Shown: positions 18,998 through 35,887 of the stretch, piece by piece
Position numbering within the stretch: position 1 is the stretch's first letter
How the letters are laid out: every line of letters starts with the position of its first letter
Made by a program: the position numbers and the translations under genes
Origin: Deltaproteobacteria bacterium
GTDB lineage: Bacteria > Desulfobacterota > Syntrophobacteria > BM002
Assembly: GCA_019309045.1 (NCBI GenBank)
Contig: JAFDGZ010000037.1
Location: 1-43,392 of the forward strand
Reading direction: 5' to 3'
DNA: 43,392 bases
Notes under the pieces: generated by a model
What the model was told of the DNA's origin: nothing
The model's database searches: none
Seen by the model: only the letters and a program-made list of their open reading frames with translations

Positions 18998-19270
18998 ATG
19001 GAGACCATAGGAGTAAAAGAACTCAAGAATAACCTCAGTCGTATCTTGAAGATGGTTGAACAGGGAAAGGTCATCAGGGTACTCCGTCACGGAAAAGATG
19101 TGGTGGAGTTGAGACCGATTGTGAAAGACGAGGAGCAAAATCTCATAGATCGTCTTCGCAGCAAGGGTCTTCTAAAAGGAGGTACCGGGAAAATCGGCCA
19201 GGTGCGCACCGTTGCCAACCAGAAACCTCACCAGCCTGTGTCAGACCTGGTGGTACAGGATCGAAGATGA
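18998..19270 (+). CDS. Antitoxin, Phd/YefM-like
   Basis: A 90-residue protein starting with METIGVKELKNNLSRIL, the DNA-binding N-terminal pattern of Phd/YefM-type antitoxins that insert a helix into the operator; RVLRHGKDVVELRP is the family's second conserved part. The C-terminal 40 residues are charged and would wrap the toxin. AGAGGGA precedes the ATG. It overlaps the toxin gene by 4 bp (ATGA). Binding to the palindrome upstream is inferred. Confidence 0.85.
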   Translation: METIGVKELKNNLSRILKMVEQGKVIRVLRHGKDVVELRPIVKDEEQNLIDRLRSKGLLKGGTGKIGQVRTVANQKPHQPVSDLVVQDRR

Positions 19271-19701
19271 TCGCCTATTTTGATACCAGCAGTATTGTAA
19301 AATGGTTCTTTGACGAACCTTACTGCCAACTGGCACGGGATGTCAAAAGCAATGCAAAAACAGTGGTCACTTCCCTTATTGCATTTCCGGAGTTTCTCTC
19401 GGCTGTGAACCGCGCCACGAGAGATGATAGATGCCTCAAAACTGACATGGAGTCCATACGGCAAGAATTCCTGCGAATCTGGCCAGACTTTCAATGGATC
19501 ACTGTGAATGAAGGGCTGGTAAAGCGATCGGCTGAGCTGATCTTTTTGCACGATTTGAGATCCTTCGACGCCATTCATCTAGCGTCAGCCCTTGTCTTGA
19601 AGGAAGAAAGCGCTGCAATGGAGGTGTTCTTCTCCTGCTTTGACCGGAATCTTAATCGAGCCGCTCTCGAGCATGGATTCATGATACATCGGTTTGACTA
19701 G
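19267..19701 (+). CDS. PIN-domain toxin (VapC-like ribonuclease)
   Basis: A 144-residue PIN domain, expected to cut RNA (often initiator tRNA or rRNA in studied cases) with Mg ions. The acidic quartet can be assigned: Asp6 in YFDTSSIVK, Glu42 in PEFLS, Asp101 in SFDAIHLASAL and Asp126 in CFDRNL. The overlap with the antitoxin stop is the classic arrangement of a type II pair. The ORF appears intact, so the module is probably functional. Confidence 0.88.
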   Translation: MIAYFDTSSIVKWFFDEPYCQLARDVKSNAKTVVTSLIAFPEFLSAVNRATRDDRCLKTDMESIRQEFLRIWPDFQWITVNEGLVKRSAELIFLHDLRSFDAIHLASALVLKEESAAMEVFFSCFDRNLNRAALEHGFMIHRFD

Positions 19702-20645: not shown

Positions 20646-21818
20646 ATGAGGGGGACGAAACAAAAAATGCTGATCTTTGTGGGCGTCCTGGCCCTGGCCA
20701 TTCTGGTGGCAGCCTTCTTTTTCATATTCAATCCACTGGGACTGGGTCCCGAGCCCCAGACAGTGCTTTCCAGCAGCTTTTTCAGCAGGCCTGCTGGAGA
20801 CCTCAGCGAACTGCAGCTCCTGGTGGACGGCAGGGAGGCCTTCAAGGAAATCCTCGCTGCCATCGATGCTGCCAGCTCATCCATTTATATCCAGACCTAT
20901 ATATGGAAAGACGACCACATAGGCCGCCAGATTGTCAACAGGCTCAAAGCTGCCGCGGACCGGGGAGTCGAGGTGACCATCAGCAAGGATCTGCTCGGCA
21001 CGGTTTTCGAGCTGGCTGACATGCTGCGCGGCAGACCCAGTCCTGTTTTTACCAGAGCTGGTCTCAGGGGATATGACCACATCCAGGTGGAAACCGAACT
21101 TTTCCGTCATACCGACCACAGCAAGTATTTCATCATAGACAAACGGCTGGTCATCTTCGGCGGCATGAACATCGGCGACGAATACCATCTAGAGTGGCAC
21201 GACTACATGGCAGTTATCCGCGGTGAAAGATGGGCGGCAGCCTTCGAGAACAGGGTGCTCGCCGGCTCTGCCTGGCCAGAGCCCGCACCTTTCATACTGA
21301 CGGTCAACGACAGAGGCGTCACCGAGATCCGCACGGCCCTTGTTGAATTGCTGGACAACGCCAGGGAAAATGTCATCATCGAACATGCCTACTTTTCAGA
21401 CAACAAAGTGATAGCAGCAGTAAAACGGGCAGCTGCCAGGGGAGTGCAGGTGGCTGTAGTACTGCCGAAAAAACCAGACACCCATGGCTGTGCCAATATG
21501 GTCACCATAAACAAGCTGCTCACGGGAACCACGGTAAACGCTCCCAGAATCTTTCTTTATCCCGGGATGAGTCATGCCAAGATAATCCTGGTCGACGGGG
21601 CGATCGCTGCCCTGGGCTCTGCCAATCTGACCCCCCGCAGTATGCTCACCAGCCGCGAAGTCGCCCTCTTCGTACATGGCAAGGGCGATTGTCCGTTCAT
21701 AAGGAAATTGCGCCAGCAACTGCAAGCTGACATAGCCCAGAGCGAACAGGTGCAGGAGCCTTTCGAGCTGACTTTCGTTGACAGGATAAAGGCAGTGGTG
21801 GGGAAATATGTATGGTGA
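20646..21818 (+). CDS. Phospholipase D-like / cardiolipin synthase-like membrane protein
   Basis: A 390-residue member of the phospholipase D superfamily with one N-terminal membrane anchor (about residues 9-29) and two HKD motifs: HSKYFIID (first) and HAKIILVD (second), each followed by the usual GGxN or GSANLTPRS region. This layout is that of cardiolipin synthases, which join two phosphatidylglycerols in the inner membrane. It has a single anchor, not the two found in the longest Cls enzymes, so another phosphatidyltransferase role is possible. It stands alone, with long gaps on both sides. Confidence 0.85.
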   Translation: MRGTKQKMLIFVGVLALAILVAAFFFIFNPLGLGPEPQTVLSSSFFSRPAGDLSELQLLVDGREAFKEILAAIDAASSSIYIQTYIWKDDHIGRQIVNRLKAAADRGVEVTISKDLLGTVFELADMLRGRPSPVFTRAGLRGYDHIQVETELFRHTDHSKYFIIDKRLVIFGGMNIGDEYHLEWHDYMAVIRGERWAAAFENRVLAGSAWPEPAPFILTVNDRGVTEIRTALVELLDNARENVIIEHAYFSDNKVIAAVKRAAARGVQVAVVLPKKPDTHGCANMVTINKLLTGTTVNAPRIFLYPGMSHAKIILVDGAIAALGSANLTPRSMLTSREVALFVHGKGDCPFIRKLRQQLQADIAQSEQVQEPFELTFVDRIKAVVGKYVW

Positions 21819-22161: not shown

Positions 22162-23163
22162 ATGGAAAAATGGAAAAAAAGATGGTTTTCGCTTGTTTTG
22201 CTGGCTCTTGGCATTACTGCTTTTACCTTGATCACACCGGTTCAAGCCGGCAAAGTACTCAAAGTTTATACCAATGCCGACGTGAATGAAATGGAGAAAT
22301 GGGCTCCTGAGGCGGAAAAGGCCATCGGCATGAAAATCGATTGGAGCCCCAGGATGTCATCAAACGAACTCTGGAGCAGGGTCCAGGCCGAGGCGCCCAA
22401 TTTCCATGCAGACATGATCTGGGGCTTCCTCAATGCCCACGCCCTGGTAGGCACCCAGCGCGGCTATTTTCTACCGTACAAGTCTCCAGTCTGGGATGAC
22501 ATTCCTGCCCAGTTCAAGGATCCCGAAGGCTATTGGCACGGCTACAATTACTGGTTTGCTGCCGTGGTGGTGAACAAGGACCTGCTGAAGAAGAAAAATC
22601 TGCCCAAGCCCAAATCATGGCTGGACCTGACCAATCCTGTGTACAGGGGCGAGATCGTCATGCCGAATCCTGGCACCAGTGGCACCGCCTTTCTTTCCGT
22701 CTCAGCAATTATGCAGATTTTTGGAGAGAAAAAGGGCTGGGACATACTCGAAAAGTTGGACAAGAACGTGGCGCAGTATACAAAATCAGGCTCAGCCCCA
22801 GCGCAACTGGTGGCCCAGGGTGAATACGCCATTGGCATCAGCTGGGACCAAGCCATCTACGGCAGGGTAGCAAAGGGATTTCCAATTGAGGGCATCATTC
22901 CCTCCGAGGGAACCGCCTATGATCTCGAGTCAGTGGCCATACTCAAGGGATGCAAGAATCTCGAGGGCGCCAGGAAACTGATCGACTGGCTTGGCTCCAA
23001 GGAAGGCATGACCTTCATTGGCAAATTCAGATCCAAGGTAACCAGGCCGGGGGTGCCCGGACTGGTGCAGCTCGATCCCGAACTGATCAAGTATGATGCG
23101 CTCTGGGCTGGTGAAAATCAGAAGAGAATCATGTCGGAGTGGAAGAGGCGCTTCCAGAAATAG
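22162..23163 (+). CDS. ABC transporter periplasmic binding protein, FbpA/AfuA-like
   Basis: A 333-residue extracellular solute-binding protein. A signal peptide of about 30 residues ends near VQAGKVL. The segments PKSWLDLTNPVYRGEIVMPNP and SGTAFLSVSAIMQIFG belong to the family that includes ferric-ion, phosphonate (2-aminoethylphosphonate) and polyamine-type binding proteins. I do not see the adjacent Tyr-Tyr pair that classical ferric FbpA uses for iron, so iron is not certain as the ligand. GGAGGGA precedes ATG 22162. Permease and ATPase genes follow. Confidence 0.85.
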   Translation: MEKWKKRWFSLVLLALGITAFTLITPVQAGKVLKVYTNADVNEMEKWAPEAEKAIGMKIDWSPRMSSNELWSRVQAEAPNFHADMIWGFLNAHALVGTQRGYFLPYKSPVWDDIPAQFKDPEGYWHGYNYWFAAVVVNKDLLKKKNLPKPKSWLDLTNPVYRGEIVMPNPGTSGTAFLSVSAIMQIFGEKKGWDILEKLDKNVAQYTKSGSAPAQLVAQGEYAIGISWDQAIYGRVAKGFPIEGIIPSEGTAYDLESVAILKGCKNLEGARKLIDWLGSKEGMTFIGKFRSKVTRPGVPGLVQLDPELIKYDALWAGENQKRIMSEWKRRFQK

Positions 23164-23359: not shown

Positions 23360-25357
23360 GTGTGCGGCGGCGCGCGCATGGAGAATTCACCACACCAGAT
23401 GGATGACAGCATGAAGGCATCCATAGAGAACAGTTATTTCCAGGAGCTGGTCAGCGACACCAGGCATTTCCTGCGTAAACCCGGGCTGGTGGCTTTGACT
23501 TCTCTGGCGGTGGTGCTCATCCTTGTTTTCATCATCTTCCCCATTGGCTCTGTATTGCTAAGGAGCTTCACGGTTGCCTACCCGACCGTTACTGTGCGCT
23601 GTACCACTGCTGCCTCGAGCAGCCCCGCCTCCCAGCAGCTGGCAATAGAGTCCATTGTGCAGGCAATCAGCGCCATCGAAGGAATCGAAGAGACGCGCAG
23701 CACCGTAGGCGAGCACGGTGCGGAGATTGTTGTCAGGTTTCACAAGGACTGGGACGATCTCAGGGGCCTGCACGACATCAAGAGGGCCCTGCAGAAATTG
23801 CAGGGTCCTGCCAGCACCACCATAAAAAGCATCAAGTACCAGTTGGGTCGGGAAACCGTCAAGAGTCTTGCTACCTACGGCGAGTTTTTTGCAAAGAGCT
23901 ACTATTATCGCGCCCTGAGAAACAGCATTGTCCTGGCAATAGTCACCACCATCCTCGTTGTCATTCTTGCCTTCTGTTTTGCCTACCTCGGCCTGCATGC
24001 TCCTGGACACATCAGGAGGATTCTGCGGCTGCTCGGCCTTCTGCCTCTCATAGCGCCGCCGTTCATATTTGCCCTTTCTCTCATTCTGATCGGCGGCCGT
24101 ATGGGAATTCTCACCAGGCTCTTTCACCTGCCCTTCAATCTGTACGGCTGGCCCGGGGTCATCACCGCCCAGGTCATCACCTTCCTGCCTCTGGGTTATC
24201 TGCTCATTGAAAACGTCCTGCGCTCTCTCGGCACCAACTTTGACGAGGCTGCCAGTGATATGGGGGCCGGCAGCGTGGATATTCTTTTCAGGATCACCAT
24301 TCCCCTGTCTGCCCCGGGAATTCTGAAAGCAGGCCTGCTTGTCTTCATAATGTCCATTGCCGACTTCGGCAACCCCATGCTCATAGGAGGCGGGGTGTCA
24401 TTCCTGGCTACAGATGCCTACTTCTTGTGGATAAGTGAAAACAACCTGGAGATGGCAGCGGTGTTCTGCGTGTTTCTCATCCTGCCGAGTCTGGTCATTT
24501 TCATTATTCATCAGTACATCCTGGCAGGCAGGGAATACACCACTGTGGGCGGCAAGCCGCAGCAGACTGAACAGAAAAGAATCAGCCCGAAAATATTCTA
24601 TCCTATGATGGCCTTTGCTGCTCCCGTGGCAGCAATGATCATCATCTGCTTCGGCACCATTCTTGTCGGGGCCTTCACCAAGATTTTGATGATTGACAAC
24701 AGTTTTACCCTGGAGCACTTCCAGAGCACCAACGGCTTTCGCTCCCTGCTCACCAGCTTGAAGTTTGCCCTGGGCGCAGCCCTCATTGCCCCCATTATTG
24801 GCGTCACCCTGTCGTACATCCTGGTTCGCAAGCGTATTCCCCTGAAGAGGCTCCTGGAATTCATGGCCCTTCTAGGTTTTGCCGTGCCCGGAACGGTCAT
24901 GGGAATCGGCTACATCATTTTCTTCAATTCTCCCCCCCTGAAGCTCACCGGCACCTTCATAATCCTGATCATCAACGAGGCGTTCAGGAACCTCTCCGTG
25001 AGCCTGGAGGCCGGCGTAGGCAAGCTGCACCAGATAGATGTGGCCATAGAAGAGGCTGCCATTGATATGGGGGCCAGCTCTTTCCGCACCTTTACCAGGG
25101 TGGTGCTGCCGCTGATCAGCTCTGCTCTTGCCGCTGGCTTCATCTATACCTTTATGGTAGGCATGATCGCTGTCAGCGCGGTTATCTTCCTGATCACGCC
25201 GGGCAACAATCTGGCTTCACTGTATATACTTGCAGTGGCTGAAGAGGGCTTTCTCGGCATGGCCTGCGCCATTTCGGTGATGCTAATTGTGGTGGTAATG
25301 GCCTGTCTCGGTGCTCTGAAGGTTCTTTCCCATTACACCAAGACTACATTTTTCTAA
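23360..25357 (+). CDS. ABC transporter fused double permease (FbpB-like) with extra domain
   Basis: A 665-residue permease with two binding-protein-dependent transport (MetI) domains in one chain, about residues 185-400 and 440-660. Each has an EAA-type loop facing the ATPase (FDEAASDMGAGSVDILFRIT and EEAAIDMGASSFRTFTRV, about residues 294 and 563). Usual FbpB proteins have about 500-560 residues; here about 95 residues are inserted between the first membrane segment (43-68) and the first MetI domain, rich in charged residues and predicted outside the membrane. GTG 23360 is too close to GGGAGG; ATG 23378 or 23411 may be the true start. Confidence 0.85.
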   Translation: MCGGARMENSPHQMDDSMKASIENSYFQELVSDTRHFLRKPGLVALTSLAVVLILVFIIFPIGSVLLRSFTVAYPTVTVRCTTAASSSPASQQLAIESIVQAISAIEGIEETRSTVGEHGAEIVVRFHKDWDDLRGLHDIKRALQKLQGPASTTIKSIKYQLGRETVKSLATYGEFFAKSYYYRALRNSIVLAIVTTILVVILAFCFAYLGLHAPGHIRRILRLLGLLPLIAPPFIFALSLILIGGRMGILTRLFHLPFNLYGWPGVITAQVITFLPLGYLLIENVLRSLGTNFDEAASDMGAGSVDILFRITIPLSAPGILKAGLLVFIMSIADFGNPMLIGGGVSFLATDAYFLWISENNLEMAAVFCVFLILPSLVIFIIHQYILAGREYTTVGGKPQQTEQKRISPKIFYPMMAFAAPVAAMIIICFGTILVGAFTKILMIDNSFTLEHFQSTNGFRSLLTSLKFALGAALIAPIIGVTLSYILVRKRIPLKRLLEFMALLGFAVPGTVMGIGYIIFFNSPPLKLTGTFIILIINEAFRNLSVSLEAGVGKLHQIDVAIEEAAIDMGASSFRTFTRVVLPLISSALAAGFIYTFMVGMIAVSAVIFLITPGNNLASLYILAVAEEGFLGMACAISVMLIVVVMACLGALKVLSHYTKTTFF

Positions 25358-25370
25358 CAGGACAGTACAG

Positions 25371-26465
25371 ATGAAAAACAGCAGTAATTCTGCGATTCTC
25401 GAATTGAGAAACATCACCAAGAGGTTCGGCAGTCTGGTGGCGGTAAATGACGTCTCCTTTTCACTGCAGCGCGGCAAGCTGGTAACCTTTCTCGGCCCCA
25501 GCGGCTGCGGCAAGACTACCCTGCTGCGCACCATAAGCGGCTTTCTGGAACCAGATCAAGGAGAGATCATCCTGGACGGCGAGGAAATAACCAGTCTACC
25601 GCCAAACCGCCGCGACACCGCAATGGTCTTCCAGAATTATGCCCTCTTCCCCCACATGACGGTTGCCCAGAATATTGCCTTTGGCCTGCGGGTGAGGAAG
25701 AGGCCAAAAGAGGAAATCGACAGGGAGGTAGAACGGCTCCTGGACCTGATGCAGATGGCCGGTCTGGGCAGCAGAAAACCCCACGAGCTCTCAGGGGGTC
25801 AGCAACAGCGAGTGGCTCTTGCCCGGGCCCTCAGCCTCGAACCCAAAATCCTCCTTCTGGACGAACCCCTGTCCAATCTGGATGCCAATCTGCGCATTTC
25901 CATGCGGGGTGAAATTCGCAAGCTGCAGCGCAACCTCGGACTCACCATAATATTTGTCACCCACGACCAGGAAGAGGCCATGTCCATCTCTGACCTGCTG
26001 GTGGTCATGAATATGGGTGTTGTGAGGCAGATCGGCCCTCCCACCAACATTTACGAACATCCCGTGGACGAGTTCGTCGCCAACTTTATCGGCCACGTCA
26101 ACTTTTTCCCGGGAGAAGTGATCGCCGTCTCCGGCAAGGAAATGTCCTTCAGGATCTCGCAGGGAACCCTGAAAGTGGAGATTCCTTCATTCCCGGTGGC
26201 CGTGGGGGACAGGTTGAGGGCCGTGGTGAGACCTGAGTCCATAGAAATAGTGGACGGAGATCGACAGCCTGGCCACAAAGAAAATGTAATCGAGGGAGTA
26301 GTAACCGAGACCATGTACATTGGCTCGATCATGCGGGTGACTATTGCTGCTGGCGAGCAAACTGTCTGGGTGGATGAAGCAGATCCACAATACAGCGGCA
26401 TGCTTCAGGAAGGCCAGAGGGTGAAATTGATTCTGAAAAAAAGGATCCATATGCTGCGGGATTGA
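25371..26465 (+). CDS. ABC transporter ATPase, FbpC/PotA-like
   Basis: A 364-residue ATPase powering the permease upstream. Walker A is GPSGCGKTT, the Q-loop lies in MVFQNYALFPHMT, the signature is LSGGQQQRVALARAL, Walker B with its Glu is ILLLDEPLSNLD and the switch His is in IFVTHDQEEAM. The C-terminal 120 residues form a TOBE-type regulatory domain. It starts 13 bp after the permease stop. The family includes ferric-ion, sulfate, spermidine and maltose importers, so the substrate cannot be read from it. Confidence 0.92.
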   Translation: MKNSSNSAILELRNITKRFGSLVAVNDVSFSLQRGKLVTFLGPSGCGKTTLLRTISGFLEPDQGEIILDGEEITSLPPNRRDTAMVFQNYALFPHMTVAQNIAFGLRVRKRPKEEIDREVERLLDLMQMAGLGSRKPHELSGGQQQRVALARALSLEPKILLLDEPLSNLDANLRISMRGEIRKLQRNLGLTIIFVTHDQEEAMSISDLLVVMNMGVVRQIGPPTNIYEHPVDEFVANFIGHVNFFPGEVIAVSGKEMSFRISQGTLKVEIPSFPVAVGDRLRAVVRPESIEIVDGDRQPGHKENVIEGVVTETMYIGSIMRVTIAAGEQTVWVDEADPQYSGMLQEGQRVKLILKKRIHMLRD

Positions 26466-26468
26466 GCT

Positions 26469-26503
26469 GGGAGTTGTCCGCTGAGACGAGGCCCGCAACT
26501 CCC
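26469..26503. repeat. Inverted repeat after the ATPase gene
   Basis: An 8-bp perfect inverted repeat, GGGAGTTG with CAACTCCC (26469-26476 and 26496-26503), begins 3 bp after the ATPase stop. There is no T run after it, so it may stabilise the mRNA 3' end or weakly attenuate reading into the methyltransferase gene. Confidence 0.45.
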
Positions 26504-26596
26504 TGGCTCCGGGCGAGCTGGCTTTGCTTGCCGGGAAAAACCCTGAAAGCAACCAGATTCATCAAACAGAGACGGCTGCATGCCTCAGAGGTAGTT

Positions 26597-27229
26597 ATGA
26601 CAGAACGAGACAGGCTAAAATGGATTTATTCGTGCAAGGACAATCAGGAGCTCTGTGAGCGTTACAATCAGTGGGCTCAGGACTACGACGCCGAATTGAT
26701 GCAGGACTACGGCTGGCAGGCCCCTGTATTGGTCACCGAGTTCTTGAGCAAGTATGTCAGCAGAGACGCCCGGATTCTCGATGCCGGGGCCGGCACCGGG
26801 CTTGTGGGGCAGTGCCTCTACCACCAGGGCTACAGGGATCTGGTGGCCATCGATCTTTCTGAAAACATGCTCGCCAGGGCCAGAGACAAGAAAGTCTACC
26901 GAAAGCTTCACCAGATGGTACTGGGAGAGCCTCTGGATTTTCCTGACGCTGCCTTTGATGCGGTGGTCTGCGTGGGAGTGTTCACCTACGGCCACGCACC
27001 CGCCAGCTGCCTGGATGAACTGGCGCGCATCACCAGGGACGGGGGATACATTATTTTTATCCAGCGCTCTGACGCCAATGAGTCCCTGGGATTTCGGGAA
27101 AAACAGGAACAACTGGAGGCCACCGGCATCTGGAGGCTGGTGGAGGCGAGTGATCCCATCTGTGCCTTTTCCAGAAAGGAGGACGAGGTGCCCCACCAGA
27201 TCTGGGTCTACCAGGTGCTGGAAGATTAG
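26597..27229 (+). CDS. Class I SAM-dependent methyltransferase, METTL27/WBSCR27-like
   Basis: A 210-residue methyltransferase. The SAM-binding motif I is ILDAGAGTGLVGQCL, motif II acid is in LVAIDLSENML, and the post-I region (DFPDAAFDAVVCVGVFTYGHAP) is normal. The N-terminal YNQWAQDYDAELMQDYGW segment is shared with UbiE/METTL27-type proteins. The substrate is unknown. ATG 26597 is preceded by GAGG; the frame is open upstream to 26462 but that part has no homology. It lies 131 bp behind the ATPase, so co-transcription is possible but not shown. Confidence 0.82.
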   Translation: MTERDRLKWIYSCKDNQELCERYNQWAQDYDAELMQDYGWQAPVLVTEFLSKYVSRDARILDAGAGTGLVGQCLYHQGYRDLVAIDLSENMLARARDKKVYRKLHQMVLGEPLDFPDAAFDAVVCVGVFTYGHAPASCLDELARITRDGGYIIFIQRSDANESLGFREKQEQLEATGIWRLVEASDPICAFSRKEDEVPHQIWVYQVLED

Positions 27230-34552: not shown

Positions 34553-35215
34553 TCAGTGCGACTCGTAGCTCACCTTTTCCTCCAGATAGTGGGACAGGTG
34601 GATCAGGGGATAGCAGACCACAAAATAAAGGATTCCCACCAGACCAAAGACCATCAAGCCCTCGGGAATGCGCTGCACAGTCAGCCAGCCCACCCGCGTC
34701 ACATCAGTGAGCCCGATCACCGAGACTATGGATGAATCCTTGACCAGGAGCACATATTCACCCACCAGCGGTGGCAGGATGACCCGAACGGCCTGGGGGA
34801 AGATGATATAGCGCATGCGCTGCCAGGCATTGAGGCCGTATGCGGTGGCCGCCTCCCGCTGGCCCCGGGGAACAGAGAGGATGCCGGCTGCCACAATCTC
34901 GCTGATGTAGGCCCCTGCATACACAGTCAAGGCGATGGCAGCGGCGGGAAAGGGCTCGAGCTGGATTCCCACCTCCGGCAGAATAAAATAGATTATGAAG
35001 ATGTGCACCAGAAAGGGAACCCCCCGCATGTAGTCGGCGTAAGCCCCCATGAGCTTTGACAGTCCCCATTGTTTGACCGTGCGGAGAATGCCGCAGATCA
35101 CCCCAAGTAGGGTGCCGGCGACAAGGCTGATTCCCGACACCATGATGGTCACCCACAACCCCTTGAGAAAGAGAGGCAGAGTATGAATGAGCCCTTTGAA
35201 GTAAACGCCGATCAT
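34553..35215 (-). CDS. Polar amino acid ABC transporter permease (HisM/GlnP family), second
   Basis: A 220-residue inner-membrane permease. The EAA loop reads REAATAYGLNAWQRMRYIIFPQAVR, the hallmark of the polar amino acid uptake family (His/Glu/Arg/Lys type), and VKDSSIVSVIGLTDVTR follows. It pairs with the permease upstream as a heterodimer. The start has AAGGTGAGG just upstream and lies 3 bp after the other permease gene's stop. Confidence 0.92.
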   Translation of the reverse strand: MIGVYFKGLIHTLPLFLKGLWVTIMVSGISLVAGTLLGVICGILRTVKQWGLSKLMGAYADYMRGVPFLVHIFIIYFILPEVGIQLEPFPAAAIALTVYAGAYISEIVAAGILSVPRGQREAATAYGLNAWQRMRYIIFPQAVRVILPPLVGEYVLLVKDSSIVSVIGLTDVTRVGWLTVQRIPEGLMVFGLVGILYFVVCYPLIHLSHYLEEKVSYESH

Positions 35216-35218
35216 GCC

Positions 35219-35887
35219 TCACCTTCCCTCCATGTAGATGAGACGGCCCTGCCACCAGATTGACAGATGTTTCAGGACAAAATAGATGAGGAGATAGAAG
35301 GCAGCCACCGTGAAGAAGCCCTCTGCTGGCATGAACCGCTCGGAGGCCATGAGCTGGCCGGCCCGCGTCAGTTCGAGCACAGAGATCAGTGATACCAGTG
35401 AACTGTCCTTGACCAGGACGATGAACTGCCCCAGCAGGGCTGGAATGGTAACGCCCAGTGCCTGGGGGAGGATCACATAGCGCATGCGCTGCAAATAGGA
35501 CAGGCCGTAGGCTGTGGCCGCCTCGGTCTGGCCGCTGGGAATCGACACAATGCCGGCCCGGACGATTTCTGCAACATAGGCGCCGCTGTTGAGGCTCAGT
35601 GCCAGGATGCCTGTCTGGACTTCATTCAGATTGACGTGCAGGCTGGGCAGGCCAAAGTAGAAAAAGTACAGCTGGGCCAGCAATGGCGTGGAGCGAATCG
35701 ATTCGATATAGATCCCGGCAAGTCTCTGTAAAAAGGTCTTTTTCGAGAGCCGCATCCCACAGGCGACCACACCGATGAGCAGCGCAAGAACAATGCTGAT
35801 GCCGGAGATCCAGCTTGTGGCCCACAGGCCCTTGAGAAACAGGGGAATATATTGTCCGATGACCCGGAGGTTAAACTGCTCGAGCAA
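35219..35887 (-). CDS. Polar amino acid ABC transporter permease (HisM/GlnP family), first
   Basis: A 222-residue permease with the EAA loop TEAATAYGLSYLQRMRYVILPQAL and LVKDSSLVSLISVLELTR. The start is TTG at 35887, with AAGGGGGA close upstream. The stop precedes the second permease gene by 3 bp. A terminator-like hairpin lies between this gene and the binding-protein gene before it. Confidence 0.92.
   Translation of the reverse strand: MLEQFNLRVIGQYIPLFLKGLWATSWISGISIVLALLIGVVACGMRLSKKTFLQRLAGIYIESIRSTPLLAQLYFFYFGLPSLHVNLNEVQTGILALSLNSGAYVAEIVRAGIVSIPSGQTEAATAYGLSYLQRMRYVILPQALGVTIPALLGQFIVLVKDSSLVSLISVLELTRAGQLMASERFMPAEGFFTVAAFYLLIYFVLKHLSIWWQGRLIYMEGR

Follow-up and report, generated by a model that had tools for sequence, protein, structure and literature searches.

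A putative RND-related PN1 porter domain inserted in the first periplasmic loop of a PhnU2-like ABC import permease

The window, by which we mean the whole stretch of 43,392 nucleotides analysed here, comes from a bacterium resembling sulfate reducers and encodes a binding protein, a double permease, and an ATPase of an ABC transporter, and the permease carries an additional domain directly after its first membrane segment (TM1). The features of the locus are the following.

22162-23163 (+): periplasmic binding protein, PhnS2-like, presumed partner of the permease (TIGR03261 phnS2, E 5.9e-78, 262 bits, below the cut-off of 392.75)
23360-25357 (+): double (two-MetI-domain) ABC import permease, 665 aa when read from GTG, with two PF00528 stretches, PhnU2/FbpB-like
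23492-23566 (+): TM1, about residues 45-69, with the ABC-family type of ending, (K/R)S-F, located by hydropathy and by column-by-column match to insertless permeases
23570-23863 (+): inserted PN1-like porter domain, residues about 71-168, predicted beta-alpha-beta-beta-alpha-beta, from ACR_tran, AlphaFold2, fold comparison, and profile searches
23750-23803 (+): best-conserved stretch within the inserted domain (residues 131-148, W-D-D-L-x-G-L-x-D-x-K-x-A....Q), where helix 2 begins, from columns invariant in 6 of 6 sequences
24239-24304 (+): first EAA loop, residues 294-315 (EAA at 296), taken as cytoplasmic and as the ATPase contact, from motif position
25049-25114 (+): second EAA loop, residues 564-585 (EAA at 565), from motif position
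25371-26465 (+): ABC ATPase, PhnT2/PotA-like, partner (TIGR03265, E 6.4e-115, 384.1 bits, below the cut-off of 457.7)

The permease is read as a single unbroken frame of 665 codons. Its start codon is uncertain, as the alignment with homologues begins only around residue 12-18, and the true start may be the ATG at 23378 or a later codon. PF00528 (BPD_transp_1) matches the protein in two stretches with 57.1 bits against a gathering score of 26.4, and the profile search of its own genome gave 47.2 and 33.9 bits. With an EAA loop in each half, and with a binding protein and an ATPase in the operon, the system has the makeup of a type I ABC importer. The binding-protein gene adjoins the permease gene in all three insert-bearing loci that have upstream DNA (L040, L041, and L042), and the ATPase gene lies downstream in 5 of 5. 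Among the NCBIfam models, the permease is nearest to PhnU2 (TIGR03262, E 1.5e-81), yet its 274.7 bits fall below the equivalog cut-off of 593.25, and we describe it as PhnU2-like without assigning it as PhnU2. Its closest solved relative by sequence is the iron ABC permease of PDB entry 9j4r, which covers residues 183-653 only. It shares two MetI domains, two EAA loops, and the operon makeup with the PhnU2/FbpB double permeases (TIGR03262; 9j4r), and differs from them by the missed PhnU2 cut-off and by an extra porter domain of about 93 residues in the TM1-TM2 loop. Our guess for the substrate, drawn from the family names, would be 2-aminoethylphosphonate, or else a small organic acid or amine related to it, perhaps a phosphonate.

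A SAM-dependent methyltransferase gene (Methyltransf_11; 26462-27229, +) directly follows the ATPase gene. Relatives of this methyltransferase were observed in three of five related loci, downstream in L039 and L040 and upstream of the binding protein in L041, and the enzyme is possibly linked with the imported substrate. The other neighbours differ among carriers. Those of L042:4763-7653 are a PHO4 phosphate transporter, PhoU_div, and SAM synthetase, which would fit phosphorus uptake, and those of L043:3375-7188 are a lactate-racemase N-domain protein and FAD (DAO) and GMC oxidoreductases. Elsewhere in the window, inspection by eye found a small gene pair resembling a Phd/PIN toxin-antitoxin (18998-19701, +) and a 390-aa phospholipase-D-family-like protein with a signal anchor (20646-21818, +); two adjacent BPD_transp_1 permease genes with frames of 221 and 225 aa are present at 34586-35782 (-).

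The preliminary description of this DNA had pointed to an extra charged, extracytoplasmic segment after TM1, and our analysis bears this out. TM1 stands out in the hydropathy window of residues 36-75 (maximum 3.07), and the next hydrophobic segment begins at residue 183. Between them, every 19-mer of the insert stays at or below a hydropathy of 0.83, and charged residues make up 23 of its 98 positions. The EAA loops of the permease are presumably cytoplasmic, as we take from the family in general, and counting back three membrane segments from them would place residues 70-168 in the periplasm.

The same description held that FbpB-type permeases normally lack the segment, and this was confirmed in the alignment of the query with 38 relatives: the insert is present in 6 of the 39 rows (the query and five close homologues) and absent in 32, one row having no coverage of the region. 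It is likewise absent from eight of eight further relatives at 44-47% identity, which brings the readable relatives without it to 40. The 32 insertless rows have '..KS' or a similar ending of TM1 and reach a '..Y..FF' loop within some 10-20 residues of it, indicating that the added piece amounts to about 93 residues placed directly after TM1. Since TM1 of the carriers aligns with that of the insertless permeases, the event was an insertion into an ABC permease and not a replacement of its N-terminus. In the searches around the carrier genomes G435 and G433, insert-bearing copies scored at least 923 bits against the query and the nearest insertless permease at most 490, with none between. One carrier, L041, has its first ~57 residues unaligned and TM1 in no frame (L041:3942-4005), which may reflect a misassembly or a real change; its insert was retained in the alignments.

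Judging from sequence profiles and the predicted fold, the insert and PN1, the porter subdomain that comes first in RND efflux pumps, are homologous; the preliminary description had missed this kinship. The Pfam profile ACR_tran (PF00873; AcrB/AcrD/AcrF) matches permease residues 46-147 with its positions 11-113 (E 2.2e-4), which in an RND pump make up TM1 and PN1, and the two proteins are in register. The score of 19.5 bits is below the gathering score of 28 and covers only positions 11-113 of 1021; the permease as a whole RND transporter was ruled out on these grounds. Almost all of the signal comes from the insert, which alone scores 18.4 bits. The profile matches four of the six homologous inserts, with a best E value of 8.2e-8, and in the PF00873 search of its own genome the permease is listed last, behind nine other loci.

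Searches in the opposite direction also led to RND pumps. A profile of TM1 plus insert (A3), run on 297 genomes around G434, found G434's own permease and matched 36 of the 296 other genomes at E<=1e-6 (best 3.3e-11) in frames of 490-1478 aa. On 55 genomes of the class, A3 found three insert permeases and three frames of 1050-1097 aa (1.9e-4 to 7.9e-4). After removal of TM1, the insert-only profile matched pump residues about 40-130 with up to 34.9 bits; the pumps used had been preselected by A3, and this result locates the match and is not an independent hit rate. The retrieved pumps (L085-L113) have their best domain in the N-terminal PN1 stretch. Four of four pumps typed by NCBIfam were RND_permease_2-like, scoring below the whole-protein cut-off of that model because only N-terminal halves were compared. 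By sequence, the nearest RND proteins are pumps of this RND_permease_2-like type from relatives of the carrier genomes.

Seven RND pumps of the own genome, chosen by PF00873 and not by the insert profile, gave a profile-profile score of 44.4, while 200 column shuffles reached at most 21.4 and the reversed profile 13.2. Single-sequence hmmsearch scores of the same seven pumps were weak, none above 21.8 bits, so that the kinship of the insert is with a different RND branch; in one of the own genome's pumps (L069) a weak match of the insert profile is divided between residues 58-112 and 723-772. Pairwise comparison gave best scores of 78-117 per insert against a maximum of 60 in 100 shuffles each, and the best pair, the L039 insert and the L088 pump, has 29 identities in 76 positions. 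Run against PDB sequences, the insert profile by itself found no RND match up to E 10. By hhalign, the insert profile scored 10.9-16.5 against the MacB_PCD frames of the own genome (two loci, single sequences), which is within the shuffle range.

The alternating strand and helix pattern, and the impression of a ferredoxin-like fold, had been noted from the letters alone, and structure prediction upheld both. AlphaFold2 folded the insert alone into a compact domain (mean pLDDT 86.1, pTM 0.75) with the order E-H-E-E-H-E, the predicted elements being strands at 71-83, 109-116, 120-127, and 155-168 and helices at 89-104 and 133-145. The segment is thus neither common in the family nor predicted as disordered, the two findings that would have spoken against the original observation. 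The insert also folds in the full-length AlphaFold2 model (six sequences), in which 558 of 665 residues are below pLDDT 50, and that model was rejected as unusable for the permease outside the insert. VIA-align 2 placed the predicted insert on AcrD 39-133 (Z 13.9, rmsd 1.8 A, 91 aligned residues), and the insert-alone model gave Z 13.0 and rmsd 3.1 over 100 residues; in each of the two runs, all 50 matches listed were RND pumps. MacB and FtsX were absent among the fold matches listed and may still be present further down. AlphaFold may have leaned on RND-like patterns, and the sequence and fold lines are therefore not fully independent.

The insert appears to have been gained once. In a tree of the permease core (38 rows, the partial L014 having been excluded beforehand, and L010/L011, which duplicate L039/L040, being counted once), the six carriers form one clade with support 100/100. 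This clade is nested among insertless permeases, and a single gain fits best. The six inserts also form one clade (100/100) in a PN1 tree, computed without the own-genome pumps L063, L064, and L068, whose best local profile match lies outside the N-terminus. Few other branches of the PN1 tree are resolved, and thus no donor lineage can be named.

The insert is under purifying selection. The three distant pairs with the least saturation give it a dN/dS of 0.19-0.24, where the MetI domains have 0.05-0.09; for L039/L040, the closest pair, the value is 0.59 and comes from very few changes. The insert diverges much faster than its host, with an identity to the query of 30-56% compared with 64-82% over the whole permease. 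Of its 101 positions, 21 are invariant in the six sequences; they cluster in beta1 (Y-P-T-V) and, where helix 2 starts, in W-D-D-L-x-G-L-x-D-x-K-x-A.

The carrier clade is small and is found in Thermodesulfobacteriota-type MAGs. A search of 84,980 species genomes yielded at least five insert-bearing loci, plus a single distant match that is partial and lies outside the inserted domain; this search needs short exact peptides, and more carriers may have escaped it. Among 395 genomes drawn from the phylum, the own genome alone has an insert permease at E<=1e-60. Three were found among 55 genomes of the class, and two overlapping sets of 389 genomes, one around G435 and one around G433, contained two each. 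Among plasmids, 930 records match the permease, none covering 80% of the protein and none with the insert, and no viral contig searched encodes a permease relative. A single-contig relative in G002 (L116:4257-5180, -) is 90% identical in its C-terminal half. It was considered as a truncated gene, which was rejected as the frame enters a run of N, an assembly gap, and the presence of the insert is therefore unreadable there.

Apart from its unexpected RND-related domain, the system is an ordinary type I importer. The insert and PN1 of the AcrB/AcrD/MexY type share the beta-alpha-beta-beta-alpha-beta order, the position directly after TM1, and homology over about 75-85 residues. In contrast to RND pumps, the domain here is a lone porter subdomain on an ABC permease, without PN2, PC1, PC2, the docking domain, and the 12-TM part. 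The MalF-P2 domain is likewise a folded periplasmic insertion in the permease of a type I importer, present once per transporter, and it contacts MalE (PMC3150292). It is larger (residues 91-271) than the insert. The two also differ in fold.

Type VII ABC proteins (MacB, FtsX, and LolCE) likewise combine an ABC system with a porter-like extracytoplasmic fold; their Porter subdomain is named for its likeness to AcrB and is called a likely part of mechanotransmission in PMC5985334. They differ from the present system in membrane fold and direction, and the Porter of MacB is split by the Sabre subdomain, whereas the domain here is contiguous. Porter folds are thus already known in type VII ABC proteins, and what appears to be new is a relative of RND PN1 in an importer permease. 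Pfam and NCBIfam hold no family model for the combination of an ABC permease with a PN1-like domain, and our literature search, with subscription journals mostly outside its coverage, found no RND-type PN1 relative in an importer permease.

We give somewhat better than even credence to a joint explanation in which a type I importer acquired, by one insertion, an RND-related PN1 that acts as a docking and coupling arm. The domain would have entered the first periplasmic loop of the single-chain permease in the ancestor of the clade. As both permease halves lie on one chain, each transporter would carry one such domain, standing in the periplasm over TM1 of the first half. A single periplasmic domain, tied to TM1 and beside a soluble binding protein, is read most simply as an arm for docking and coupling. 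From its position, the domain would most likely be a MalF-P2-like arm that holds the binding protein (22162-23163) over the permease and would help to couple docking to the ATP-driven gate, and the face formed by WDDLxGLxDxKxA (residues 131-148) is a candidate contact with the binding protein. The fuller proposal, that a stretch of an RND gene was captured by the importer permease and turned into an autonomous periplasmic docking or gating arm, is tentative, its chances being a little short of even.

Other roles for the domain were weighed against this one. The preliminary description suggested that the segment might bind the substrate or the binding protein. In the first case it would handle the ligand itself, binding the substrate or funnelling it into the permease vestibule. 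The topology, which sets the domain near the vestibule, would agree with this. In RND pumps, PN1 is part of the porter that handles substrate, and the porter subdomains line substrate pockets. However, a lone PN1 is without the neighbouring subdomains that form these pockets, the adjacent gene encodes a dedicated binding protein, and the conserved W, D, G, and K are scattered over beta1 and helix 2; we consider this reading unlikely. The domain might instead recruit another periplasmic or envelope protein, such as an adaptor, an enzyme, or an RND/MFP partner, or serve as a relay like the type VII Porter, since PMC5985334 connects the Porter subdomains of MacB and FtsX with contact to a partner and with mechanotransmission. 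The operon, however, is accompanied by no adaptor and by no conserved extra gene except the methyltransferase, and the comparison with the two MacB_PCD loci of the own genome (single sequences) gave scores within the shuffle range; we give this reading a rather small chance. A similarly small chance falls to the reading of the insert as a passenger that the permease tolerates and that is structural at most, as its fast divergence relative to the whole protein would allow; against this, the insert is kept without a frame break in 6 of 6 members of the clade, and its dN/dS in the three distant pairs and its invariant residues speak for constraint.

Two further explanations concern the origin of the domain. 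Ferredoxin-like folds are common, Foldseek alone placed other ferredoxin-like proteins at ranks 1-9, led by antibiotic-biosynthesis-monooxygenase-like and dimeric ferredoxin-like ones, with RND chains from rank 10, and there is a weak match to AsnC_trans_reg (E 0.13), all of which would suit a convergent fold unrelated to RND PN1. Against convergence stand a colinear similarity over 70-85 residues, profile searches that match both ways, scores exceeding those of shuffled controls, and a position behind TM1 in both proteins, and we regard it as very improbable. An assembly artefact joining an RND gene to an ABC gene could be suspected since all carriers, as far as titled, are metagenome assemblies; it is refuted by independent copies, namely six independent contigs with the same boundaries and with inserts diverged along the same clade as permeases that are themselves only 64-82% identical to the query, and its probability is close to nil.

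The docking and coupling arm that we favor bears on a small class, that of folded periplasmic insertions in importer permeases, for which MalF-P2 serves as the example. A second such arm, small, autonomously folding, and of known ancestry, would make it possible to test directly what these arms do. The finding also shows that RND porter subdomains are able to live outside RND pumps, and it bears on how RND and type VII ABC machines came to share porter-like folds. The fuller proposal of a captured RND stretch, if true, would represent a domain transfer between unrelated and oppositely directed transporter superfamilies, and PN1 would be a portable coupling module.
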